Part shown: piece by piece, positions 16,446 to 59,424 of the stretch | Layout: every line of letters begins with the position of its first letter | Numbering within the stretch: position 1 is the first letter of the stretch | Assembly (NCBI RefSeq): GCF_947500985.1 | Contig: NZ_CANMTX010000010.1 | Span: 1 to 64,000 of the forward strand | DNA from: an uncultured Maribacter sp. | Lineage (GTDB): Bacteria > Bacteroidota > Bacteroidia > Flavobacteriales > Flavobacteriaceae | Reading direction: 5' to 3' | DNA: 64,000 nucleotides | Position numbers and translations under genes: made by a program | Notes under the pieces: model-generated | Database searches by the model: none | Told to the model about the DNA's origin: nothing | The model's input: only the letters and a program-made list of their open reading frames with translations

Positions 16446-16521
16446 TGGCACGGGAGGAGAGACTCGAACTCCCGACACCTGGTTTTGGAGACCAGTGCTC
16501 TACCAACTGAGCTACACCCGT
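16446..16521 (-). tRNA. tRNA-Trp (anticodon CCA)
   Basis: The minus strand folds into a cloverleaf with acceptor ACGGGTG/CTCCCGT, anticodon stem CTGGT/ACCAG and loop CTCCAAA (anticodon CCA), and TTCGAGT in the T loop. The acceptor has a T-T mismatch at the sixth pair. Discriminator G is followed by CCA in the DNA, unlike the other four tRNAs here. It lies between tuf and secE. Confidence 0.96.
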
Positions 16522-16620
16522 ATGAATAGCGATTATTAAATCACCTATTCTATTATTTGCATGTAAAGGTGTCCCGCTTGAGCAAGACACCCTTATACAC
16601 AATACTCTTTTAGATTAAAA

Positions 16621-17808
16621 TTAATCTATAATCTTAGTTACCTGACCAGCACCTACTGTTCTACCACCTTCACGTATAGCGAAACGTAGACCGATACTCA
16701 AAGCAATAGGCTGAATAAGCTCTACCGTAATAGTAAGGTTATCACCTGGCATTACCATTTCAACTCCTGAAGGAAGTGCAATGTTACCAGTTACATCTGT
16801 AGTTCTTACATAGAACTGTGGACGATAGTTATTATGAAATGGGGTATGACGACCACCTTCTTCTTTTTTCAATACATAAACCTCAGCTTCAAACTTAGCA
16901 TGTGGCTTAACAGAACCTGGCTTACAGATTACCATACCTCTACTAATCTGAGATTTTTCAATACCTCTTAGCAAGATACCTACGTTATCACCAGCTTCAC
17001 CTCTATCCAAAATCTTACGGAACATTTCAACACCAGTAACAGTAGAAGTCAATTTCTCAGCTCCCATACCGATAATCTCAACTGGATCACCTGTATTTGC
17101 AACACCAGTTTCAATACGACCAGTTGCAACAGTACCACGACCAGTAATTGTAAATACATCTTCAACAGGCATTAAGAAATCTTTTTCAACATCTCTCTTT
17201 GGAAGTTCGATCCACTCATCAACAGCAGCCATCAATTCCATAACTGTATCAACCCATTTTTGCTCACCGTTCAATGCACCTAATGCAGAACCAGCGATTA
17301 CAGGTCCATTATCACCATCATACTCATAAAAAGAAAGTAATTCTCTTACTTCCATTTCAACAAGCTCGATTAATTCCTCATCATCAACCATATCCACTTT
17401 ATTCATGAATACAACCATTCTTGGAATACCTACCTGACGACCTAATAAGATGTGCTCACGAGTTTGTGGCATAGGACCATCTGTAGCAGCAACAACTAAT
17501 ATAGCACCATCCATTTGAGCAGCACCAGTAACCATGTTCTTCACATAATCCGCGTGACCAGGACAGTCAACGTGTGCATAGTGACGATTAGCCGTAGAGT
17601 ACTCTACGTGTGAAGTGTTAATTGTAATACCTCTTTCTTTTTCCTCAGGAGCGTTATCGATAGAATCGAAACTTCTCAATTCAGAAAGACCTGCATTTGC
17701 CAAAACAGTAGTAATAGCAGCAGTCAATGTAGTTTTACCGTGATCCACGTGTCCAATAGTACCTATATTTAAGTGCGGTTTGGAACGATCGAAAGTTTCC
17801 TTTGCCAT
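16621..17808 (-). CDS. tuf: Elongation factor Tu
   Basis: EF-Tu is the GTPase that delivers aminoacyl-tRNA to the ribosome. The 395-residue protein has GHVDHGKTT (G1), [12 protein letters not shown] (G3), [11 protein letters not shown] (G4) and SALGALNG (G5), then the beta-barrel domains. It lies inside the tRNA cluster, between tRNA-Thr(GGT) and tRNA-Trp, and is probably cotranscribed with them from the promoter at 18362-18392. Confidence 0.99.
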
Positions 17809-17863
17809 GTTTAATGTATTTTATTCTTAGTTTATATTAGTGTACAAATTTATACCTTAATTG

Positions 17864-17935
17864 AGCCAATGACGAGAATTGAACTCGTGACCTCTTCCTT
17901 ACCAAGGAAACGCTCTACCCCTGAGCTACACCGGC
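17864..17935 (-). tRNA. tRNA-Thr (anticodon GGT)
   Basis: The acceptor GCCGGTG/CATTGGC (with two G-T pairs), anticodon stem TTTCC/GGAAG and loop TTGGTAA (GGT) define it. CCA is not encoded. The track ORF at 17850-18101 is a spurious reading through this and tRNA-Gly. Confidence 0.96.
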
Positions 17936-17960
17936 GTAAAGTGTTGAACCCACCCAAAAG

Positions 17961-17990
17961 ATAGATTCCTGCCTTCGCAGGGACGACATT
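17961..17990. repeat. REP-like palindromic element inside the tRNA cluster
   Basis: The spacer between tRNA-Thr and tRNA-Gly contains attcctgccttcgcaggga, a CCTGC-CTTC-GCAGG palindrome that resembles the common bacterial intergenic element of the form TTCCTGC(CTTC)GCAGGAATGAC. Only this one copy was noticed in the window. Confidence 0.45.
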
Positions 17991-18006
17991 ACTGTCAAAT
18001 TTATAG

Positions 18007-18079
18007 AGCGGGAGACCGGGTTCGAACCGGCGACATTCAGCTTGGAAGGCTGACGCTCTACCAACTGAGCTACTCCCGC
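18007..18079 (-). tRNA. tRNA-Gly (anticodon TCC)
   Basis: The acceptor GCGGGAG/CTCCCGC is perfectly paired, the anticodon stem is TCAGC/GCTGA with loop CTTCCAA (TCC), and the T arm contains GGTTCGAACCC. CCA is not encoded. Confidence 0.97.
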
Positions 18080-18126
18080 TTATAATATTACAATATTTCA
18101 ATAAAATTCTTTAGAAAATAGTTTTG

Positions 18127-18208
<82 letters not shown>

Positions 18209-18235
18209 TCAAACTAATATTTTAAAGATCTTAAG

Positions 18236-18309
18236 AGCCGATGGAGGGACTCGAACCCACGACCTGCTGATTACAAATCAGCTGCTCTAGCCAGCTGAGC
18301 TACATCGGC
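18236..18309 (-). tRNA. tRNA-Thr (anticodon TGT)
   Basis: The acceptor GCCGATG/CATCGGC is perfectly paired, the anticodon stem is CTGAT/ATCAG with loop TTTGTAA (TGT), and the T arm contains GGGTTCGAGTCCC. It is the first gene of the tRNA-tuf-secE-nusG-rpl-rpo cluster. Confidence 0.97.
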
Positions 18310-28036: not shown

Positions 28037-28618
28037 ATGAAAAAATCATTATTAAGTTTAGCATTCGTAGCCATTTTCGGATTTAGCGCTACAGCCTCTA
28101 CACCAATTGATGGAGAGAAAAAAGAAATTAACGTTAGCGAAAGTACTGTTACATGGAAAGGTTACAAGGTTACCGGATCACATGATGGTAGCATCAACCT
28201 AAAATCTGGTCATCTAGAAATGAACGGAAAGAAATTAACTGGTGGTGAATTTGTTGTAGACATGACTACAATTTCTAATAATGATCTTGAAGCAGGGAGT
28301 GGAAAAGAAAAACTTGAAGGTCATTTAAAATCTGCTGATTTCTTTGGCGTAGAAAGTAACCCAACTGCAAAATTGGTTTTCACTTCTGTTAAGGCCATGA
28401 ACGACAATTCATATACCGTAACAGGAGACTTAACTATTAAAGGTATTACAAAACCTATAACCCTAGTGGTTTCTATGTTTGAAAATAAAGCTACTGCAAC
28501 ACTTAAAGTAGACAGAACAAAATTTGATATTAAATATGGTTCTGGAAGCTTTTTTGATAATCTAGGAGATAAAGCAATCTACGATGATTTTGATTTAGTA
28601 GTAGACTTAGTACTATAA
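28037..28618 (+). CDS. YceI family periplasmic protein
   Basis: The 193-residue protein has a signal peptide (MKKSLLSLAFVAIFGFSATAS) and the YceI lipocalin-like fold: STVTWKGYKVTGSHDGSINL, GGEFVVDMTTIS, and DLTIKGITKPITL. Family members bind isoprenoid-like lipids such as polyprenyl quinones. Being downstream of MarR and a possible quinone reductase suggests a shared quinone-related role (inference). It is followed by a strong terminator. Confidence 0.92.
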   Translation: MKKSLLSLAFVAIFGFSATASTPIDGEKKEINVSESTVTWKGYKVTGSHDGSINLKSGHLEMNGKKLTGGEFVVDMTTISNNDLEAGSGKEKLEGHLKSADFFGVESNPTAKLVFTSVKAMNDNSYTVTGDLTIKGITKPITLVVSMFENKATATLKVDRTKFDIKYGSGSFFDNLGDKAIYDDFDLVVDLVL

Positions 28619-28650
28619 TCGTTTTAATACAATCAAATTACAACAATTTA

Positions 28651-28687
28651 AAATCCCTTTGATAAATTTCAAAGGGATTTTTATTTT
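28651..28687 (+). terminator. Terminator of the marR-yceI operon
   Basis: AAATCCCTTTGA-taaatt-TCAAAGGGATTT is a 12-bp perfect stem followed by T-rich sequence, 32 bp after the yceI stop. Confidence 0.9.
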
Positions 28688-28701
28688 TGACTAGCTAAAG
28701 T

Positions 28702-28731
28702 TTGATAGTTTAAATTTCCTCTTTATATTTG
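28702..28731 (+). promoter_or_regulatory. Promoter of the trp operon
   Basis: TTG-N19-TATATTTG is an exact consensus match. The start is expected near 28735-28738, almost on the ATG of the leader ORF at 28739. Confidence 0.85.
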
Positions 28732-28738
28732 ATGCTCA

Positions 28739-28795
28739 ATGAAAAATTTAATCGCAAATACTTGGTGGTGGAACAACTTACGAAAAACATCGTGA
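28739..28795 (+). CDS. trpL: Trp operon leader peptide
   Basis: An 18-codon ORF (MKNLIANTWWWNNLRKTS) lies between the trp promoter and an intrinsic terminator upstream of trpE. Three consecutive Trp codons occupy 28763-28771. Three Trp in 18 residues, directly before trpE, is the classical sign of translation-coupled attenuation. The stop region TCGTGA (28790-28795) is complementary to TCACGA (28836-28841) in the terminator, which supplies an anti-terminator. It is too short for the ORF track. Confidence 0.88.
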   Translation: MKNLIANTWWWNNLRKTS

Positions 28796-28824
28796 GCAAA
28801 GCATCATTGTAGTAAAACTATATA

Positions 28825-28858
28825 AAGGCTTGTCATCACGACAAGCCTTCTTTATTTT
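28825..28858 (+). terminator. Trp attenuator terminator
   Basis: AAGGCTTGTC-atcac-GACAAGCCTT is a 10-bp perfect stem followed by CTTTATTTTAT, ending 13-20 nt before the trpE ATG. Its loop and 3' arm overlap the sequence that can pair with the leader stop region. Confidence 0.88.
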
Positions 28859-28870
28859 ATAAAAGTACCT

Positions 28871-30268
28871 ATGACCTATCAATTTAAGACATATCATAAA
28901 AAAATTCTTGCCGACACCATGACGCCGGTAAGCGTTTATTTGAAAATAAGAGACCGTTTTCCAAATAGTATTTTATTAGAGAGTAGTGACTATCACGCTA
29001 ATAACAATAGCTTTTCGTACATCTGCTGCAACCCTATTGCATCTATTAAAGTGGAGAATGAGATTATTACAAAACAGTTTCCTGATGGCGCTATTGAAGA
29101 GATTCAAATTACAGTAGATACCAATGTTGTTGATATTATTGATACGTTCAGTAAAACGTTCAAGGCAGACACTAACGACTTTAAATTTATAAATAATGGT
29201 CTGTTCGGCTATATGGCTTACGATGCCGTTCGGTATTTCGAAGATGTAGATATATCTGTTAAAGATGACTCGATTCATATTCCAGATATTTACTATGCAG
29301 TATATCAAAACATTATTGCTATAAATCATTATAAGAACGAAGCTTATCTTTTTGCGCATTGCTATAACACAGAGAATAATATTCCTGAATTAGAACAACT
29401 GTTAAGTATTAGAAATTTTGCCACGTATAACTTTAAAATAGAAGGTGACAGAGAATCTAATCTAGAAGATGAAGAATATAGAGAACATGTAGACTTAGCA
29501 AAAAAGCATTGTCAACGTGGCGATGTTTTTCAATTGGTATTGAGCCGTCGTTTTTCTCAAGGTTTTAAAGGTGATGAGTTCAATGTTTATAGAGCGTTAC
29601 GTTCTGTAAATCCTTCACCATATTTGTTCTATTTCGATTATGGAGATTTTAAGATATTTGGTAGTTCACCAGAAGCACAACTGATTGTTAGCGATGGTAA
29701 GGCAGAAATTCACCCCATTGCTGGTACTTTTAAAAGAACCGGAAACGATGAACAAGATGCACAACTTGCTAAAGAGTTAAAGACAGACGATAAAGAAAAT
29801 AGTGAGCATGTAATGTTAGTAGATCTTGCACGTAACGACCTTAGTAGAAATGGTAGCGTAGTACAGGTAGAAAACTATAGAGAAGTACAGTTTTTCTCTC
29901 ATGTAATTCACTTAGTTTCAAAGGTTACCGGAATAAAGAAAAGTGATATACCTACTATGAAGGTTGTCGCTGACACTTTCCCCGCAGGTACTTTAAGTGG
30001 CGCGCCTAAACATATGGCAATGCAACTTATTGAAAAATATGAAAAAACGAGTCGTGGGTATTATGGTGGCGCTATCGGTTTCATGGATTTCTCAGGAAAC
30101 TTCAACCATGCCATCATGATCAGAACTTTTTTAAGTAAAAATCACAAACTACATTATCAGGCTGGCGCCGGATTGGTCGCTGCATCAAACCCAGAAAGCG
30201 AACTACAAGAAACATATAACAAACTAGGAGCTTTGACCAAGGCATTAGAAATAGCTGAAGAAATATAA
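28871..30268 (+). CDS. trpE: Anthranilate synthase component I
   Basis: TrpE converts chorismate plus ammonia to anthranilate, the first step of Trp synthesis. The 465-residue protein ends in the chorismate-binding domain with DVFQLVLSRRFSQ, LVDLARNDLSRNG, TFPAGTLSGAPKHMAMQ and YYGGAIGFM. A LLESSDYH-type segment sits at the N-terminal Trp feedback site (SILLESSD). It follows the attenuator and is 1 bp from trpG. Confidence 0.97.
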   Translation: MTYQFKTYHKKILADTMTPVSVYLKIRDRFPNSILLESSDYHANNNSFSYICCNPIASIKVENEIITKQFPDGAIEEIQITVDTNVVDIIDTFSKTFKADTNDFKFINNGLFGYMAYDAVRYFEDVDISVKDDSIHIPDIYYAVYQNIIAINHYKNEAYLFAHCYNTENNIPELEQLLSIRNFATYNFKIEGDRESNLEDEEYREHVDLAKKHCQRGDVFQLVLSRRFSQGFKGDEFNVYRALRSVNPSPYLFYFDYGDFKIFGSSPEAQLIVSDGKAEIHPIAGTFKRTGNDEQDAQLAKELKTDDKENSEHVMLVDLARNDLSRNGSVVQVENYREVQFFSHVIHLVSKVTGIKKSDIPTMKVVADTFPAGTLSGAPKHMAMQLIEKYEKTSRGYYGGAIGFMDFSGNFNHAIMIRTFLSKNHKLHYQAGAGLVAASNPESELQETYNKLGALTKALEIAEEI

Positions 30269-30269
30269 G

Positions 30270-30839
30270 ATGAAGAAAATATTAGTTATAGATAATTACG
30301 ATAGTTTCACTTATAACCTAGTGCATTATTTAGAGGAATTAGGTTGTGAGGTTATTGTAAAACGTAATGACCAACTTACTCTAGAAGAGGTTGATGCTTT
30401 TGATAAAATTGTACTTTCTCCAGGTCCTGGTATTCCTGATGAAGCGGGATTATTAAAACAAATCATCGAAAAATATGCACCTACCAAAAGTATATTCGGT
30501 GTTTGTTTGGGGCAACAGGCTATAGCTGAAGTATTCGGTGGTTCGTTAATAAATTTGGATGAAGTGTACCACGGTATTGCAACTAAAATAAAAATCACAA
30601 AAGATGATATTATTTTTGAAGGGCTGCCTAATGAAATCGAAGTAGGTAGATACCATTCTTGGGTGGTGAATCCTAATTTACCAGAAGTTTTAGAAGCTAC
30701 TTCTATAGATAAAAACGGACAAATCATGTCACTCCGTCATAAAACTTATGATGTACGTGCCGTACAATTTCATCCAGAATCTGTTTTAACTCCGCAAGGA
30801 AAAAAAATGCTTGAGAATTGGGTAAATGCAAAAGCATAG
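30270..30839 (+). CDS. trpG: Anthranilate synthase glutamine amidotransferase component II
   Basis: TrpG supplies ammonia from glutamine to TrpE. The 189-residue class I amidotransferase has the nucleophile Cys in FGVCLGQQAIAEVFGG and the His-Glu pair in VQFHPESVLT. It might also serve folate synthesis as PabA, which cannot be judged here. It is the second gene of trpEGDCFBA. Confidence 0.97.
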   Translation: MKKILVIDNYDSFTYNLVHYLEELGCEVIVKRNDQLTLEEVDAFDKIVLSPGPGIPDEAGLLKQIIEKYAPTKSIFGVCLGQQAIAEVFGGSLINLDEVYHGIATKIKITKDDIIFEGLPNEIEVGRYHSWVVNPNLPEVLEATSIDKNGQIMSLRHKTYDVRAVQFHPESVLTPQGKKMLENWVNAKA

Positions 30840-30908: not shown

Positions 30909-31904
30909 ATGAAAGAGACACTTAATAAACTTATAAATCACGAAATACTTTCCAAAGAAGATGCGAAACGCATTTTGGTAAATATTGCGAAAGGTGATTA
31001 CAACACAAGTCAGATTGCTGCTTTTTTAACAGTATATATGATGCGTAGTATTACTATTGAAGAACTTGAAGGATTTAGAGATGCATTATTAGATTTATGT
31101 TTGGCAGTAGATTTATCTGCCTATAACCCTATTGATCTTTGCGGTACTGGTGGTGATGGAAAAGATACTTTTAATATTTCTACTCTTGCCTCTTTTGTTA
31201 CAGCAGGCGCAGGAGTAAAAGTTACTAAGCATGGTAATTACGGAGTATCTTCTAAATGTGGTAGTAGTAATGTGATGGAATTTCTAGGGATAAAATTCAG
31301 TAACGACGCTGGCTTCCTAGAAAAATGTATAGATGAAGCTGGTATTTGTGTTTTACACGCTCCCCTATTTCACCCTGCCATGAAAAATGTGGCTCCTATT
31401 CGTAAAGATTTAGGCGTAAAAACGTTCTTCAATATGCTCGGTCCAATGGTAAATCCTGCTTTTCCTAAAAATCAAATGGTAGGTGTTTTCAACTTAGAGC
31501 TTGCCCGTATGTACGGATATTTATATCAGAAAACCGATAAGAATTTCACCGTTCTGCATGCTTTAGATGGGTATGATGAAATTTCTTTAACGGGAAGTAC
31601 TAAAACCATTTCTAACCATACAGAAAGCATGCTAAAACCATCTGATTTTGGTGTAAAACAAATTAAACAAAGTGATATTGTAGGCGGAGATTCTATTGAT
31701 ACTTCTGCTCAGATTTTCTTGAATGTTTTACAAGGCAGAGGTACAGAGCCGCAAAACAATGTTGTGTGTGCTAATGCCGGTATTGCAATAGCTACTGTAA
31801 ATAACCTAACACCTTTAGAAGGTTTTGAAAAAGCTAAAGAATCGCTTTTAGGTGGACACGGACTAGCAGCTTTGAAGAAAATACAAGAACTAAGCAGAAA
31901 TTAA
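30909..31904 (+). CDS. trpD: Anthranilate phosphoribosyltransferase
   Basis: TrpD joins anthranilate to PRPP. The 331-residue protein shows the glycine-rich PRPP loop CGTGGDGKDTFNIST, KHGNYGVSSKCGSSNVME and HPAMKNVAPIRKDLGVKTFFN. Full length, and in the usual place for Bacteroidota trp operons. Confidence 0.97.
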   Translation: MKETLNKLINHEILSKEDAKRILVNIAKGDYNTSQIAAFLTVYMMRSITIEELEGFRDALLDLCLAVDLSAYNPIDLCGTGGDGKDTFNISTLASFVTAGAGVKVTKHGNYGVSSKCGSSNVMEFLGIKFSNDAGFLEKCIDEAGICVLHAPLFHPAMKNVAPIRKDLGVKTFFNMLGPMVNPAFPKNQMVGVFNLELARMYGYLYQKTDKNFTVLHALDGYDEISLTGSTKTISNHTESMLKPSDFGVKQIKQSDIVGGDSIDTSAQIFLNVLQGRGTEPQNNVVCANAGIAIATVNNLTPLEGFEKAKESLLGGHGLAALKKIQELSRN

Positions 31905-31955: not shown

Positions 31956-32741
31956 ATGAACATTCTAGATAAAATAGTAGCCGATAAACGCAAAGAAGTT
32001 GAATTGAAAAAATCGATCATTCCAGTGTCTCAATATGAAGCATCTGTACTTTTTAATCGAAAAACCAACTCTTTAGCTCAAGCACTTAAAAATAGTGATA
32101 CGGGTATTATAGCTGAATTTAAACGTAGGTCTCCGTCCAAAGAAAGTATTAATCAAAATGCTAATGTTGGTCAAGTTGCCAAAGGTTATGAGAATGCCGG
32201 AGTTTGCGGAATGAGCGTACTTACAGATATTAAATATTTTGGTGGTGCTATCGAAGATTTAATTTTAGCACGCGCATCGGTTAATCTTCCATTACTACGT
32301 AAAGAATTTATCATTAGTGAATATCAAATAATCGAAGCCAAAGCATATGGTGCAGATGTTATTTTACTTATCGCAGCAATTCTAACAAAGCAAGAAATTA
32401 AGACCTATTCTGAACTGGCTAAAAGCTTAGGCTTAGATGTTTTATTAGAGGTACATAATGAAGAGGAACTTCATAAATCTATTATGCCAAGTTTAGATAT
32501 GTTAGGCGTAAACAATAGAAACCTAAAGACTTTCGAGGTAAGTTTAGATACTAGTAAATCTTTATCAAAATTGATACCAGATGATTTTGTAAAAATTTCT
32601 GAAAGCGGAATTAGTTCTATTGATGCCATCAAAGAATTAAAACCTTATGGTTATGAAGGTTTTTTAATTGGTGAGAATTTTATGAAGACAGATAACCCTG
32701 GGAAAAGTGCCATTCAATTCATCAAAAACTTGAAAAACTAA
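31956..32741 (+). CDS. trpC: Indole-3-glycerol phosphate synthase
   Basis: TrpC closes the indole ring. The 261-residue TIM barrel has IIAEFKRRSPSKESI, LRKEFIISEYQI, LGVNNRNLKTFEV and ISESGISS. It is not fused to TrpF. The stop codon shares one base with the start of trpF (taATG), suggesting translational coupling. Confidence 0.97.
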   Translation: MNILDKIVADKRKEVELKKSIIPVSQYEASVLFNRKTNSLAQALKNSDTGIIAEFKRRSPSKESINQNANVGQVAKGYENAGVCGMSVLTDIKYFGGAIEDLILARASVNLPLLRKEFIISEYQIIEAKAYGADVILLIAAILTKQEIKTYSELAKSLGLDVLLEVHNEEELHKSIMPSLDMLGVNNRNLKTFEVSLDTSKSLSKLIPDDFVKISESGISSIDAIKELKPYGYEGFLIGENFMKTDNPGKSAIQFIKNLKN

Positions 32742-33367
32742 TGAAACTGAAAATTTGTGGAATGAAACTGAATACGACTGAAGTTGCGCAATTGCGACCA
32801 GACTATTTGGGCTTTATTTTCTGGGAACCCTCTTCTAGATTTTTTGAAGGTAAAATCTCCGAACTTCCGCATACGATTAGTAAAGTGGGCGTTTTTGTTG
32901 ATGCAGAGTTAGATTATATCATTAATACAGTTCAGAAATATCAGTTACAAGGACTGCAATTGCACGGCCATGAAACTCCAGATTATTGTACTAAAATTGC
33001 AGCTGAATTAAAGAAATTGAATCATAAAGTCGACATTATAAAAGTATTCTCCATTAAAGAGGAATTCAACTTTGATGTTTTGACGCCGTATGAAAATGTG
33101 TGCGACTATTACCTTTTTGATACTAAAGGAAAATTACCCGGCGGAAATGGATATACCTTTAATTGGTCTGTTCTTAAAAATTACCCTTCTACAAAACCTT
33201 TCTTTTTAAGCGGAGGTATTGGTTTAAATAATCTGGATAAGATTAATGAATTTATGAAAACACCTGAATCTAAATATTGCTATGCCATTGATGTCAATAG
33301 CTCTTTCGAAATAGAACCAGGATTGAAAAATATTGAAGAATTACAAAAGTTTAAAGAAGCGCTATGA
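32741..33367 (+). CDS. trpF: Phosphoribosylanthranilate isomerase
   Basis: TrpF performs the Amadori rearrangement before TrpC. The 208-residue protein has KICGMK at the N-terminus, [19 protein letters not shown] and [11 protein letters not shown]. It overlaps trpC by one base and trpB by four (ATGA). Confidence 0.96.
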
Positions 33368-34548
33368 ATTATAATGCTGACGAAAAAGGATACTACGGTG
33401 AATTTGGTGGTGCCTTTATACCTGAAATGTTGTACCCAAACGTTGAGGAACTACGACAAAATTATTTAAAACTGATGTATGAAGATTCTTTTCAGAAAGA
33501 ATTTAATCAGCTTTTAAAAGACTATGTTGGTAGACCTTCTCCCCTATATTTTGCTAAACGTCTTTCTGAAAAGCACGGTTGTAAAATTTATTTAAAAAGA
33601 GAAGACTTAAACCATACTGGTGCCCACAAGATTAATAACACTATCGGTCAAATTCTTATGGCCCAAAAATTGGGTAAAACTAGAATTATCGCCGAAACTG
33701 GTGCTGGTCAACATGGTGTTGCTACCGCTACCGTTTGTGCTTTAATGGGCATGGAATGTATCGTTTACATGGGTGAAATTGATATTGCCCGTCAAGCTCC
33801 TAATGTTGCCCGTATGAAAATGCTTGGCGCAGAAGTAAGACCGGCAAAATCTGGTAGTAGAACATTAAAAGATGCAACAAACGAGGCTATTAGAGATTGG
33901 ATAAACAATCCTATAGACACCCATTACATTATTGGTTCTGCAATTGGTCCGCATCCTTACCCAGATATGGTTACACGTTTTCAATCTATAATATCAGAAG
34001 AGATAAAATGGCAACTGAAAGAACATGAAGGGCGAGAAAATCCTGATTACGTAGTGGCATGTATTGGTGGTGGCAGTAATGCCGCTGGCACTTATTACCA
34101 CTTCTTAGATCAACCTGAAGTTGGAATTATTGCCGTTGAAGCTGCTGGTAAAGGAGTAAATTCTGGCGAAAGTGCTGCAACATCTGCTCTTGGTAAAGTA
34201 GGTATTATTCATGGTTGCAAAACCATGTTGATGCAAACAACAGATGGTCAAATTACAGAACCCTATTCTATTTCTGCGGGATTAGATTATCCTGGCGTAG
34301 GTCCTATGCATTCGCATTTATTCAAATCTGGTCGTGCTGAATTTTACTCTGCAACAGATGACGAGGCTATGGCTGCAGGGTTAGAATTATCGCAATTAGA
34401 GGGAATTATACCTGCTATTGAAACAGGACATGCGTTTGCCATTTTTGAACATAAAAAATTCAAGAAAGATGACGTTGTCGTTATCAGCCTTTCTGGTCGA
34501 GGCGATAAAGATTTGAATACATATATTGATTATTTTAAGCTAGCATAA
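33364..34548 (+). CDS. trpB: Tryptophan synthase beta chain
   Basis: TrpB joins indole and serine using PLP. The 394-residue protein has the PLP lysine in [30 protein letters not shown], and the phosphate-binding GGGSNAAG. It works as an alpha2-beta2 complex with TrpA, whose gene follows by 6 bp. Confidence 0.98.
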
Positions 34549-34554
34549 CCTATT

Positions 34555-35319
34555 ATGAGCAATAGAATTACAACAAAATTACAAGAAGACAAAAAGCTTC
34601 TTTCTATATATTTTACGGCTGGTTATCCTGCATTGAATGATACCGTTCAAATCATTCAAGATTTGGAAAAGAACGGCGTAGATATGATCGAAATAGGATT
34701 ACCATTTAGTGATCCTCTTGCAGACGGACCTACTATTCAAGAAAGCTCCACTGCCGCCTTGAAAAATGGAATGACTACCGAAATAATTTTCAACCAATTA
34801 AAAGATATTCGCAAAACGGTCTCTATCCCTTTAATTATAATGGGATACTTTAACCCAATGTTACAATACGGTGTTGAGGCATTCTGTAAAAAATGTCAAG
34901 AAATTGGTATTGACGGATTGATTATGCCAGATTTACCTTTAGATGTGTACAAAGAGGATTATGAGGCAACTTTTAAAAAATACGGACTTATAAATATTTT
35001 TCTAATTACACCACAAACTAGTGATGCTCGTATTCGTCAAATTGATGATGCTTCTAACGGGTTTATCTATATGGTCAGTTCTGCTAGTGTTACAGGTTCA
35101 AAATCGGGTTTTGGTCAAGAACAAGAAAATTATTTTGAGCGAATAGCTTCCATGAATTTAAAGAATCCACAAATAGTTGGTTTTGGTATTAAGGACGAAG
35201 AAACTTTTAAGCAGGCAACTAAAACCGCCAAAGGTGCTATTATAGGTTCTGCTTTTATTAAGCATTTGACTGCTAATGGAACTGATAAAACTGCTGAGTT
35301 CACCAAACTAATACGATAA
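34555..35319 (+). CDS. trpA: Tryptophan synthase alpha chain
   Basis: TrpA cleaves indole-3-glycerol phosphate to indole, passed to TrpB. The 254-residue TIM barrel has IEIGLPFSDPLADGPTIQ with the catalytic Asp/Glu region and GLIMPDLPLDVYKED, plus FGIKDEETF. It is the last enzyme gene of the operon; a small ORF follows after one base. Confidence 0.97.
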   Translation: MSNRITTKLQEDKKLLSIYFTAGYPALNDTVQIIQDLEKNGVDMIEIGLPFSDPLADGPTIQESSTAALKNGMTTEIIFNQLKDIRKTVSIPLIIMGYFNPMLQYGVEAFCKKCQEIGIDGLIMPDLPLDVYKEDYEATFKKYGLINIFLITPQTSDARIRQIDDASNGFIYMVSSASVTGSKSGFGQEQENYFERIASMNLKNPQIVGFGIKDEETFKQATKTAKGAIIGSAFIKHLTANGTDKTAEFTKLIR

Positions 35320-37955: not shown

Positions 37956-38011
37956 TACCTTGTAATATGATTTTTATTCATTTGTCTGTAACCAAAAAAA
38001 AAACAGAACAT

Positions 38012-40096
38012 ATGAAAAATTTCAACTTTTTATCAATTTTAATGCTTTTGCTGATTATAGCAAGTTGCTCAGATGACGACAATGCCGTATCCAACGTAAT
38101 CATACCAGCATCTGGTGACATCGCCGGCGGACCCTTTACTTTTTGTGTAGACGGTGTACCTGATATGGTAAGTGGCATAACCCTTAATAGTGAAAGCGCT
38201 ACAGGTACTAGCAGCACATGGGTAATTACTGATGACCAAAATAATATTCTTGGTATTCCTCCAACTTTAGAAGCAGTACAAGGTGTTGATTTTGACGCTG
38301 CGGGTGCAGGTACTTGTTTTATTTGGTACTTAAGATATGAAGAAGGGCTAACCGGACTCGAAATGGGTTTGAATACCAATGGTTTTGAAGGCTCTTTTGA
38401 TTTATCGAACTCCATCGAGGTCCAAAGAAACGAAACCATGGCAGGTGTTCTTTCAGGTGGACCTTATGAATTTACCGTTGATGGTAATGCCGATTTCGTT
38501 ACCGATATTTCTTTAGATGGTGAAAATGCAATAGGTAGCAATAGTACTTTTGTCATTACCGATGATGAACTCAATATTCTTGGATTACCACCAACATTAG
38601 AAGCTGTAAAAGAAGTTGATTTTGACATGGCAGGTGCAGGTGTTTGTCTTATCTGGTATTTACGATATGAAGATGATTTGATCGGTGCCGAAGCAGGTAT
38701 GAATGCGGGAGAACTTGAAGGCTGTTTTAGTTTATCTAATTCTATTCAAGTTACTCGATTAGATGCTGCAAATGCTGGAATAATTTCAGGAGGTCCATTT
38801 AACTTTTGTGTAGATGGTGAAGTAGATAACGTTTATGGAATTACTTTAGACAGCTCAGAATCTACAGGTAGCAGTAGCAGCTGGGTTATTACAGATGAGC
38901 AAGGAAAAATTCTAGGTCTTCCACCTACATTAGAAGCAGTAGAAGGGGTGAATTTTGATGGAGCAGGTGCTGGTACTTGCTTAATATGGTATTTACGCTA
39001 TGAAGGTGAATTGAACGGACTAGCTGTTGATATGAATGCAAATGACCTACAGGGGAATTTTAATTTATCTAATTCAATTGAAGTGGTTAGAAGTAAAACC
39101 GAAGCCGGAGTTTTAACTGGTGGACCATATAAATTCTATGTAGATGGTGAAGCTGACCATGTAACCGATATTATGCTAGATGCCTCTGAAGCTTCAGGAA
39201 CAAATAGCACATGGGTTATTACAGATGAAGAATTGAATATTCTTGGTCTTCCACCAACTATTGATGCTGTTAAAGGTGTAAACTTTGATGCTGCAGGTGT
39301 TGGTACTTGTTTAATTTGGTATTTAAGATATGAAGATGGTTTAGAAGGTGCCGCCATGGGCTATAACGCTGCAGACTTAAACGGATGCTTTGATCTGTCT
39401 AACCCTATTGAAGTTCAAAGAGTACAAGGTGTAAATGCAGGTACTTTAGAAGGAGGTCCATTTAGCTTTTGTGTTGACGGTGAAGTTGATAATGTATATG
39501 GCATTACGCTAGATAATTCCAACGCAACGGGAACTCAAAACACTTGGGTTATTACTGATGATCAAGGAAAAATATTGGGTCTACCTCCAACACTTGAAGC
39601 TGTAGAAGGCGTAAACTTTGATGGTGCCGGTGCAGGAACTTGTTTAATTTGGTACGCACGTTACGAAGGTGAAATTACAGGACTTGCGGTAGATATGAAT
39701 GCAAATAACGTTACAGGAAATTTTGCGCTATCGAACCCATTGACAGTGGTAAGAACAAAACCTGAAGCCGGTACAATTACGGGAGGTCCGTTTGAATTTA
39801 TTGTCGATGAAACTGCTGATTTCGTTACTGGTATTACTTTAACCAACGAAAATGCGTCAGGAGCAAATAGCTCTTGGATAATTACAGATGAATCTGGTAG
39901 AATACTTGGATTGCCACCAACTTTAGCAGATGTACAAGCTGTAGATTTTAACGCTGCCGGTGAAGGAACATGCTTTATCTATTACATTAGATACGAAGAT
40001 GGATTAACAGGTATGGAACCTGGCTGGACATTTGATGAGTTCAATGGCTGTTTTGATATTTCAAACAATATAAAAGTGGTTCGCAAGGTTCATTAA
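38012..40096 (+). CDS. Lipoprotein with six tandem domains arranged as three two-domain units
   Basis: From the ATG at 38012 there are 694 residues. The N-terminus MKNFNFLSILMLLLIIASCSDDDN is a lipoprotein signal with lipobox Cys. Six 110-111-residue repeats follow, each GGPFxFxVDG ... WVITDDQxxILGLPPTLEAV ... GAGTCLIWYLRYE ... LSNSIEVxR. Odd repeats carry FCVDG and a Cys in AGTC; even repeats lack FC but have GCF near the end. No known family was recognised; an Ig-like beta fold on the outer membrane is a guess. The track start at 37967 adds a non-signal extension and is rejected. Confidence 0.85.
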   Translation: MKNFNFLSILMLLLIIASCSDDDNAVSNVIIPASGDIAGGPFTFCVDGVPDMVSGITLNSESATGTSSTWVITDDQNNILGIPPTLEAVQGVDFDAAGAGTCFIWYLRYEEGLTGLEMGLNTNGFEGSFDLSNSIEVQRNETMAGVLSGGPYEFTVDGNADFVTDISLDGENAIGSNSTFVITDDELNILGLPPTLEAVKEVDFDMAGAGVCLIWYLRYEDDLIGAEAGMNAGELEGCFSLSNSIQVTRLDAANAGIISGGPFNFCVDGEVDNVYGITLDSSESTGSSSSWVITDEQGKILGLPPTLEAVEGVNFDGAGAGTCLIWYLRYEGELNGLAVDMNANDLQGNFNLSNSIEVVRSKTEAGVLTGGPYKFYVDGEADHVTDIMLDASEASGTNSTWVITDEELNILGLPPTIDAVKGVNFDAAGVGTCLIWYLRYEDGLEGAAMGYNAADLNGCFDLSNPIEVQRVQGVNAGTLEGGPFSFCVDGEVDNVYGITLDNSNATGTQNTWVITDDQGKILGLPPTLEAVEGVNFDGAGAGTCLIWYARYEGEITGLAVDMNANNVTGNFALSNPLTVVRTKPEAGTITGGPFEFIVDETADFVTGITLTNENASGANSSWIITDESGRILGLPPTLADVQAVDFNAAGEGTCFIYYIRYEDGLTGMEPGWTFDEFNGCFDISNNIKVVRKVH
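38126..40093 (+). repeat. Three copies of a 663-bp two-domain repeat
   Basis: The GG codons opening each repeat lie at 38126, 38456, 38789, 39119, 39452 and 39782: spacings 330, 333, 330, 333, 330. Odd domains resemble odd and even resemble even, so the duplicating unit is 663 bp (221 codons). Confidence 0.9.
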
Positions 40097-57399: not shown

Positions 57400-59424
57400 A
57401 TGGCAAAAGAAAACAAAACAAATCCGAAAAAACCAAAATTTAGCTCTTGGTGGATTTATGGATTAGTAGCAGTATTACTAATTGGATTTCAATTATTCAA
57501 TAGTGATGATTTAGCTAGTACCAATAAAACGACTACTTCAGAATTACAACAGTACTTAAGAAATGGTGATGTAAAGAAGATTCTAATTATTACGAATACC
57601 AATCAAGCAAAAGTCTTTTTAAAAGATGAAGCTATTGCTAAAGATGTTCATAAAGATTTGAATGAAAAATCATTTCTACCATCTTCAGGTAATTTACCAC
57701 AGTATACTTTAGACTATGGTGATCTTCAAATATTTCAAAATGAAATAACTGAAATCAAAAAAGAAAATAATTTAGATACGATTATTGAATTTGGTAAAGA
57801 ATCTACAGCCATTTTAGATTTCTTACTATCCTTATTGCCATTTGTTCTAATCATTGGTATATGGATATATTTAATGCGTAGAATGTCTGGCGGCGGCGGC
57901 GGTGGCGCTGGAGGTCAAATATTTAATATCGGTAAATCTAAAGCCAAGTTATTTGACGAAAAAACAGATACTAGAACATCTTTTAAAGATGTTGCCGGTC
58001 TAGAAGGAGCAAAAGAAGAAGTTGAAGAGATTGTAGATTTCTTAAGAAATCCAGACAAATACACTTCATTAGGTGGTAAAATTCCTAAAGGTGCATTATT
58101 AGTTGGCCCTCCAGGTACCGGTAAAACCCTTTTGGCAAAAGCCGTTGCAGGTGAAGCTAAAGTGCCTTTCTTTTCACTATCAGGTTCTGATTTCGTTGAA
58201 ATGTTCGTAGGTGTTGGTGCTTCTAGAGTACGTGACCTTTTTAAACAAGCGAAAGACAAATCACCAGCTATTATTTTCATTGACGAAATTGATGCTATCG
58301 GTAGAGCTAGAGGTAAAAATAATTTTACCGGTTCTAACGATGAGCGTGAAAATACATTGAACCAATTATTAACCGAAATGGATGGTTTCGGTACAAATAC
58401 AAATGTTATTGTACTTGCAGCTACTAACCGTGCAGATGTATTGGATAAAGCTTTAATGCGTGCAGGTAGATTTGACAGACAAATTTATGTTGACCTTCCA
58501 GATATTCGCGAGCGTAAAGAAATTTTCGAAGTTCACTTAAGACCTATTAAAACTGCTGAAACTTTAGATTTAGATTTCTTAGCAAGACAAACACCTGGTT
58601 TCTCTGGTGCAGATATTGCAAATGTTTGTAACGAAGCAGCATTAATTGCAGCCCGTAATGAGAAAAAAGCGGTTACTAAACAAGATTTCTTAGATGCAGT
58701 AGATAGAATCGTTGGTGGTCTAGAAAAGAAAAATAAAATCATTACTCCTGGTGAGAAGGAAACTATTGCTTATCACGAAGCTGGTCATGCAACCACAAGT
58801 TGGATGTTAGAACATGCTGCTCCTTTAGTGAAGGTGACCATCGTACCTAGAGGACAGTCCTTAGGTGCTGCATGGTATTTACCAGAAGAGCGTTTAATAG
58901 TTAGACCAGAACAAATGTTGGACGAAATGTGTGCAACAATGGGAGGTAGAGCTGCCGAGAAAGTTATTTTCAATAAAATATCTACTGGTGCATTAAGTGA
59001 TCTAGAGAAAGTAACCAAGCAAGCTCGTGCAATGGTAACTATCTATGGCCTTAATGATGAAATAGGAAACATAACTTATTATGATTCTGCTGGGCAAGAT
59101 TCTTATGGTTTTTCAAAACCTTACAGTGAAGATACCGCTCGAAAAATTGATGCAGAAATATCTAAAATCATAGAAGAGCAGTACCAAAGAGCAATTAAAG
59201 TGCTTACCGATAATAAGGACAAATTAACGACCTTAGCCGAACGATTGTTAGAGAAAGAAGTTATCTTTAAAGAAGATTTAGAAAAAATATTTGGTGTTAG
59301 AAATTTTGAAAAAGATATCCTAGCATTAGAAAACAAAAAAAATCTTGAAAAGTTAAAAGATTCAGACTCAAATTTAGATTCTGATTCAAAAACGGAAGAG
59401 GAAGAAATTACAGAGAATAAATAA
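57400..59424 (+). CDS. ftsH: ATP-dependent zinc metalloprotease FtsH
   Basis: FtsH degrades membrane and regulatory proteins at the inner membrane. The 674-residue protein has two membrane helices (about 16-34 and 140-158), a Gly-rich linker (SGGGGGGAGGQIF), AAA domain with Walker A GPPGTGKT near 236 and Walker B IIFIDEIDA, and the zinc site HEAGH near 459. The C-terminal tail is acidic. A weak inverted repeat (AATTGCT/AGCAATT) follows. It is in an operon with phospholipid genes. Confidence 0.98.
   Translation: MAKENKTNPKKPKFSSWWIYGLVAVLLIGFQLFNSDDLASTNKTTTSELQQYLRNGDVKKILIITNTNQAKVFLKDEAIAKDVHKDLNEKSFLPSSGNLPQYTLDYGDLQIFQNEITEIKKENNLDTIIEFGKESTAILDFLLSLLPFVLIIGIWIYLMRRMSGGGGGGAGGQIFNIGKSKAKLFDEKTDTRTSFKDVAGLEGAKEEVEEIVDFLRNPDKYTSLGGKIPKGALLVGPPGTGKTLLAKAVAGEAKVPFFSLSGSDFVEMFVGVGASRVRDLFKQAKDKSPAIIFIDEIDAIGRARGKNNFTGSNDERENTLNQLLTEMDGFGTNTNVIVLAATNRADVLDKALMRAGRFDRQIYVDLPDIRERKEIFEVHLRPIKTAETLDLDFLARQTPGFSGADIANVCNEAALIAARNEKKAVTKQDFLDAVDRIVGGLEKKNKIITPGEKETIAYHEAGHATTSWMLEHAAPLVKVTIVPRGQSLGAAWYLPEERLIVRPEQMLDEMCATMGGRAAEKVIFNKISTGALSDLEKVTKQARAMVTIYGLNDEIGNITYYDSAGQDSYGFSKPYSEDTARKIDAEISKIIEEQYQRAIKVLTDNKDKLTTLAERLLEKEVIFKEDLEKIFGVRNFEKDILALENKKNLEKLKDSDSNLDSDSKTEEEEITENK

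Follow-up and report, generated by a model that had tools for sequence, protein, structure and literature searches.

The trpL leader of Escherichia coli is controlled by stalling of the translating ribosome, by the competition between an antiterminator and a terminator and by ribosome release at the stop codon. For Bacteroidota, the RNA family Bacteroid-trp (Rfam RF01692) was published by Weinberg et al. 2010 (PMC2864571). In Flavobacterium psychrophilum, according to the accessible part of one study, leader-peptide attenuation was inferred ahead of amino-acid operons, as in the locus described here, and that part does not mention a leaderless form (PMC9723704); another report notes Bacteroid-trp upstream of the trp operon of this species (PMC6414381). 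The attenuator as such is therefore already known.

Leaderless sensors are known from other groups. The trpL1 leader of Streptomyces lividans (MFAHSTRNWWWTAHPAAH) is leaderless and has 18 codons with WWW after 8 codons, then a terminator and trpE (PMC8079986). The attenuator RNA of Sinorhizobium meliloti, trpL/rnTrpL, starts at the AUG of the trpL ORF; once released, this RNA and the peptide have additional functions in trans (PMC7298713). Mycobacterial leaderless poly-cysteine ORFs attenuate an operon (Canestrari et al. 2020, cited in PMC13236596).

The window, a 64,000-nt stretch of the genome of an uncultured Maribacter sp., contains a match to RF01692 at 28719–28834 (plus strand, 50.4 bits; gathering cut-off 49). 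The match is the only one in this genome and covers the full model length, with several non-standard pairs. Like Bacteroid-trp, the element lies ahead of a tryptophan biosynthesis operon in Bacteroidota, contains a Trp-codon ORF (WWW) and has the 5′ arm of a terminator at the end of the model. Matches occur in 143 of the 201 Flavobacteriaceae genomes searched; there were none outside Flavobacteriaceae in the phylum sample, and the model may miss many members there.

All features of the locus are on the plus strand. The leader ORF MKNLIANTWWWNNLRKTS (28739–28795) has 18 codons and ends with TGA at 28793–28795. Its sensor, three consecutive TGG codons, is located at 28763–28771, with no in-frame start codon between the ATG at 28739 and the Trp codons. 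The intrinsic terminator (28825–28858) is a 10-bp hairpin with arms at 28825–28834 and 28840–28849, an ATCAC loop and a T-rich tract at 28850–28858; the gap between terminator and trpE is 21 bp. The operon has the order trpEGDCFBA, comprising trpE (anthranilate synthase component I, 28871–30268, ATG at 28871), trpG (30270–30839), trpD (30909–31904), trpC (31956–32741), trpF (32741–33367), trpB (33364–34548) and trpA (34555–35319). The minimum free energy of the leader region is −32.1 (z = −4.84), and none of 200 shuffled sequences was as stable. A sequence-only reading of this DNA had proposed the promoter, the 18-codon ORF with three Trp codons and the 10-bp terminator before trpE, and each was recovered at its position, base for base. 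Family membership, the hairpin P1 and the AAGC:GCTT antiterminator helix, described below, go beyond that reading. Elsewhere in the window, a 709-aa ORF (37967–40096) with about six repeats of a unit of ~110 residues (GGPFxFCVDGxxDxVxGITL...WVITD) probably encodes a secreted protein or lipoprotein, and five tRNA genes are clustered on the minus strand at 16449–18309.

Tandem codons for the end product in the leader ORF and an intrinsic terminator ahead of trpE are features of an attenuator, and a mutually exclusive antiterminator was obtained in the computed folds of truncated transcripts, both for the window and for 103 leaders. The element is thus very probably a ribosome-mediated transcription attenuator of trpEGDCFBA and a member of RF01692 in a near-leaderless form. 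Trp operons of other phyla are, as is generally known, regulated by TRAP, T-box or riboswitch-type leaders, and a protein- or metabolite-binding leader would be the alternative to attenuation by ribosomes. Such a leader is extremely improbable here: translation is indicated by the WWW ORF, by the constancy of its frame and by the substitution of GTG or TTG for the start codon in some relatives, and no T-box or riboswitch family matched.

The 5′ neighbour of the trp locus is a YceI-like gene (28037–28618) ended by a terminator at 28650–28688 (AAAATCCCTTTGA-TAAAT-TTCAAAGGGATTTT and a T-run), which insulates the trp promoter from it. The promoter has the two elements of Bacteroidota sigma-A promoters, a −33 element TTTG at 28701–28704 and a −7 element TATATTTG at 28724–28731. 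The latter fits TAnnTTTG and is kept with similar spacing in relatives; the two elements are in register (N19), and TTG at N19 is also present in most short-spacing relatives. The −7 box of F. psychrophilum spans −12 to −5 (PMC9723704), and in F. johnsoniae the transcription start site (TSS) lies 4–5 nt past the −7 element. By analogy with these offsets in other flavobacteria, we infer a transcript start at 28736–28737 and a 5′ UTR of 2–3 nt (28736–28738), a well-constrained prediction that falls within the 1–4 nt expected by the sequence-only reading. With 2–3 nt of predicted RNA upstream of the AUG, a Shine–Dalgarno sequence is absent. The Rfam consensus has about 20 positions before the AUG, and the RF01692 model overlaps the promoter box because the predicted transcript of the window has only 2–3 nt there.

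A second TAnnTTTG, TATTTTTG at 28682–28689, overlaps the T-run of the upstream terminator, and the same attenuator could in principle be transcribed from there or from elsewhere further upstream, with an ordinary 5′ UTR of ~45 nt. This is improbable, since the upstream box is missing in the sister species G076, which keeps only the box close to the AUG, the −33 TTTG stands in register with the box TATATTTG, and short spacing is shared by a clade of 17 taxa and found again outside it. A search of relatives for a conserved alternative promoter found none.

The spacing d between the final G of TAnnTTTG and the A of the leader start codon was compared in about 200 leaders, with d = 5 equated with a 0-nt 5′ UTR via the published F. 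psychrophilum and F. johnsoniae offsets. In the window, and in G076, d is 8. The distribution is bimodal: 74 leaders have d of 5–9, 13 have 10–14 and the remainder mostly 15–25; d = 4 was permitted in the search and gave no cases. About one third of the leaders would accordingly have a 5′ UTR of 0–4 nt and the others mostly one of 10–17 nt, as predicted from these offsets. One leader (L020) with boxes at both d = 5 and d = 19 was assigned to the long class. The set found with RF01692, which is not selected on d, contains 33 genomes with short, 9 with middle and 61 with long spacing. Among the leaders found with RF01692, 35 of 106 have short spacing; ordinary genes of the same loci that carry a TAnnTTTG box have d = 5–9 in only 5 of 124 cases (Fisher p = 4e-9). 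In most short leaders, the −33 TTG is in register. In all spacing classes alike, the first Trp codon follows the AUG at a distance of 8 codons (103 of 105 leaders).

The short spacing noticed in the window is common to its whole clade (17/17 rows, support 99), which comprises Maribacter, Arenibacter, Eudoraea, Flagellimonas/Muricauda and Robiginitalea. Other short leaders belong to Flavobacterium frigidarium/kayseriense/pokkalii (d = 5), Joostella, some Winogradskyella, one Aquimarina and Mesonia/Psychroflexus/Zunongwangia; most Flavobacterium leaders examined have the long-UTR form. Related leaders of Bacteroidales, located ahead of trpB or trpD, show both spacings, with d of 5 and 9 in some Prevotellaceae/Bacteroidaceae and about 20–23 in the others. 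At least six changes between the short and long states were counted on the TrpE tree of 112 rows, a single-gene FastTree phylogeny with many weak forks.

The two classes also differ at codons 5–6. In long leaders, these codons contain TTAA in 88 of 105 cases, with a pairing probability of ~0.8, whereas TTAA occurs in none of the 73 short leaders and the pairing probability is ~0.3. This difference would be understandable if ribosomes that load at the 5′ end required an open start. It is also conceivable, though rather unlikely, that the AUG came close to the promoter by drift, that initiation proceeds as on any short leader and that the spacing has no functional link. Bacteroidota lack Shine–Dalgarno sequences in any case, trp leaders with UTRs of 10–17 nt exist in the same family, and the association of a short UTR with a missing TTAA stem was not significant in the test of independent pairs (4.1 of 5 in the same direction, 0 opposite, p = 0.125), which with only five contrasts is unable to reach significance. 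Drift does not, however, agree well with a bimodal distribution that is sparse at 10–14 and breaks off sharply at its lower end, at the predicted +1, with the repeated switches of state or with the distribution of the TTAA stem, and the short his leaders of the same clade also count against it.

The his leader of the window's genome (MKNRTTHHHFHIHA; L239, G000:C1) lies upstream of hisG, is followed by a terminator and has the box TACTTTTA at d = 8. In the clade with short trp leaders, d of the his leaders is 8–9 in all seven genomes (G000, G001, G011, G018, G026, G032 and G057), and in genomes with long trp leaders it is 16–22; G030, however, combines a trp leader at d = 9 with a long his leader. 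In almost every relative, the first HH of the his leader lies at a distance of 6 codons from the AUG. Judged from sequence, the his leaders of the Maribacter–Arenibacter–Muricauda clade look near-leaderless; this evidence is weaker than that for trp because the box, TAnnTTTA, is less canonical.

Two further leaders were observed in this genome. About 250 bp upstream of PDT/pheA (prephenate dehydratase, at 107824) lies an aromatic-rich ORF MTKQYFWNGFYFYFFFKRGTGLL (L241, G000:C7) with a strong terminator behind it; the element is likely a Phe/Tyr attenuator and apparently has an ordinary 5′ UTR. A branched-chain-rich ORF MKLPNLKIELVIVIPNLG (L240, G000:C9), followed by a terminator upstream of ilvD (at 57697), is likely an ilv attenuator with ambiguous promoter spacing (d = 5 or 16).

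A broader reading of these data can be put forward tentatively, at slightly less than an even chance: the amino-acid attenuators of Bacteroidota would alternate repeatedly between leadered and truly leaderless forms at a fixed distance from AUG to sensor, the leaderless form would lose the codon 5–6 stem, loading at the 5′ end would be a tuned part of the switch and trp and his would have shifted together in Maribacter–Arenibacter–Muricauda.

The antiterminator of the window is formed by the 5′ strand TCGTGA (28790–28795), which includes the stop codon, and its complement TCACGA (28836–28841), composed of loop bases of the terminator followed by the two initial bases of its 3′ arm. The sequence-only reading had proposed this pairing at the same coordinates, and had made its case dependent on conservation of the Trp-codon ORF and of the pairing in related genomes. 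Both are conserved: the fixed sensor distance was described above, and a Watson–Crick complement of 6–8 nt between the leader downstream of the Trp codons and the terminator loop is present in 112 of 121 leaders, against ~6 in shuffled sequences, with some compensatory change. The base 3′ of TCGTGA co-varies with the loop base 5′ of TCACGA (A/T 52, T/A 3, C/G 1), and in one small lineage (L077, L090, L120 and L121) the register is shifted to GTGAGA:TCTCAC with a GGCTTATC terminator. The position of the stop codon varies: it starts 6 nt before the first base of TCGTGA in 16 leaders, 3 nt after it in 60 and 8 nt after it in 20, so that it lies before the motif in 15-codon leaders, inside it in 18-codon leaders and after it in 20-codon leaders. 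That TCGTGA is retained wherever the stop codon falls speaks for RNA pairing, and against coding, as the reason. All these counts treat the leaders without regard to kinship.

RNAalifold on pooled alignments of pre-terminator leaders gave no consensus P1 or Trp stem. In the antiterminator stretch, only six outer pairs were recovered; they are invariant and are not evidence, because the sequences were selected for those pairs. Pairing with the terminator 5′ arm alone was rejected as a universal antiterminator, as AAGC:GCTT is present in the window and some relatives and not in all. Pattern matches outside Bacteroidota (L154, L164, L172 and L178) were judged to be due to chance. Four Bacteroidales leaders (L138, L162, L220 and L137) are Bacteroid-trp-like and lie ahead of trpB; two of them, L138 and L220, have an 8-bp antiterminator GTCGTGAG:CTCACGAC.

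In the computed fold of the unblocked RNA, the hairpin P1 (28777–28796) pairs CTTACGA (28777–28783) with TCGTGAG (28790–28796) with a probability of 0.98 and sequesters TCGTGA when the ribosome is absent. Folding of the RNA left free by a ribosome stalled at the second or third Trp codon predicts inner antiterminator helices within 28799–28831, AAGC (28799–28802) with GCTT (28828–28831), the latter being part of the terminator 5′ arm, and TGTAGT (28808–28813) with ACTATA (28817–28822); these are kept in some relatives and not in all. With transcripts ending at 28842–28846, the antiterminator probability in the window is 0.88–0.97 for a ribosome at Trp codon 2 or 3 and 0 for a ribosome at the stop. 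These models agree with the earlier suggestion that a stalled ribosome would free TCGTGA and one at the stop would cover it. In the absence of a ribosome, the probability does not exceed 0.15, because P1 hides TCGTGA; with only the first Trp codon in the A site, P1 is still able to form. The same trend was obtained for 103 leaders; in these, RNA free of ribosomes reaches a mean antiterminator probability of 0.30 immediately before emergence of the 3′ arm. In full-length transcripts at equilibrium, the terminator is always more stable; antitermination must therefore be kinetic, with the outcome settled during emergence of the 3′ arm. Because TCACGA consists of loop bases and the two initial bases of this arm, it is available early.

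The proposed switch would operate as follows. Transcription would begin at about 28736, and a ribosome would load on the near-5′-terminal AUG without a Shine–Dalgarno sequence and translate 8 codons up to WWW. When Trp-tRNA is scarce, it would stall at Trp codon 2 or 3, covering the 5′ side of P1; TCGTGA would be left free to pair with the emerging TCACGA before the terminator 3′ arm is complete, and transcription would continue into trpE. When Trp-tRNA is plentiful, a ribosome at the TGA would mask TCGTGA and the terminator would form. The terminator would form as well in the absence of a ribosome, with P1 and the Trp-codon stem hiding TCGTGA.

The logic of this switch is that of E. coli trpL, as had been suggested from sequence for a flavobacterium. 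That part of the suggestion is supported; the element itself belongs to the known RF01692, and leader-peptide attenuation had already been proposed for flavobacteria. Unlike E. coli trpL, the leader is predicted to be near-leaderless and has no Shine–Dalgarno sequence, and the universal antiterminator contact involves loop bases and the beginning of the terminator 3′ arm rather than chiefly the 5′ arm. Leaderless mRNAs are few in the phylum: they are reported to account for only 5.5% in F. psychrophilum (PMC9723704), and 5′ UTRs shorter than 10 nt for ~3.7% in Bacteroides thetaiotaomicron. The view that a leader starting at the 5′ end is unusual nevertheless needs correction, as Streptomyces has trp leaders of this kind with WWW and the trpL of Sinorhizobium is leaderless too. 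The S. lividans leader agrees with that of the window in its 18 codons, WWW after exactly 8, terminator and trpE; it belongs to another phylum, with 17% leaderless mRNAs (PMC8079986), no sequence relation is claimed and the likeness is convergence. S. meliloti is an Alphaproteobacterium, and its leader has 14 residues. The mycobacterial ORFs share a leaderless sensor with the window, but they sense cysteine and are described as acting by translation attenuation (PMC13236596).

The attenuator itself is unsurprising, being of a textbook family and mechanism. The bimodal promoter–AUG spacing and the predicted near-leaderless form are new within Bacteroid-trp: the accessible part of the original publication (PMC2864571) gives neither the near-leaderless form nor the TCGTGA:TCACGA antiterminator, both predicted for the window, and no description of a leaderless form or of two spacing classes in Bacteroidota was found in the open-access literature. 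Close relatives within Flavobacterium, Aquimarina and Winogradskyella thus provide a natural series in which the same sensor is preceded by a predicted 5′ UTR of either 0–4 nt or 10–17 nt. This series permits a direct test of efficient loading on 5′-terminal AUGs without Shine–Dalgarno guidance, and of loading time as a determinant of the attenuator set-point.
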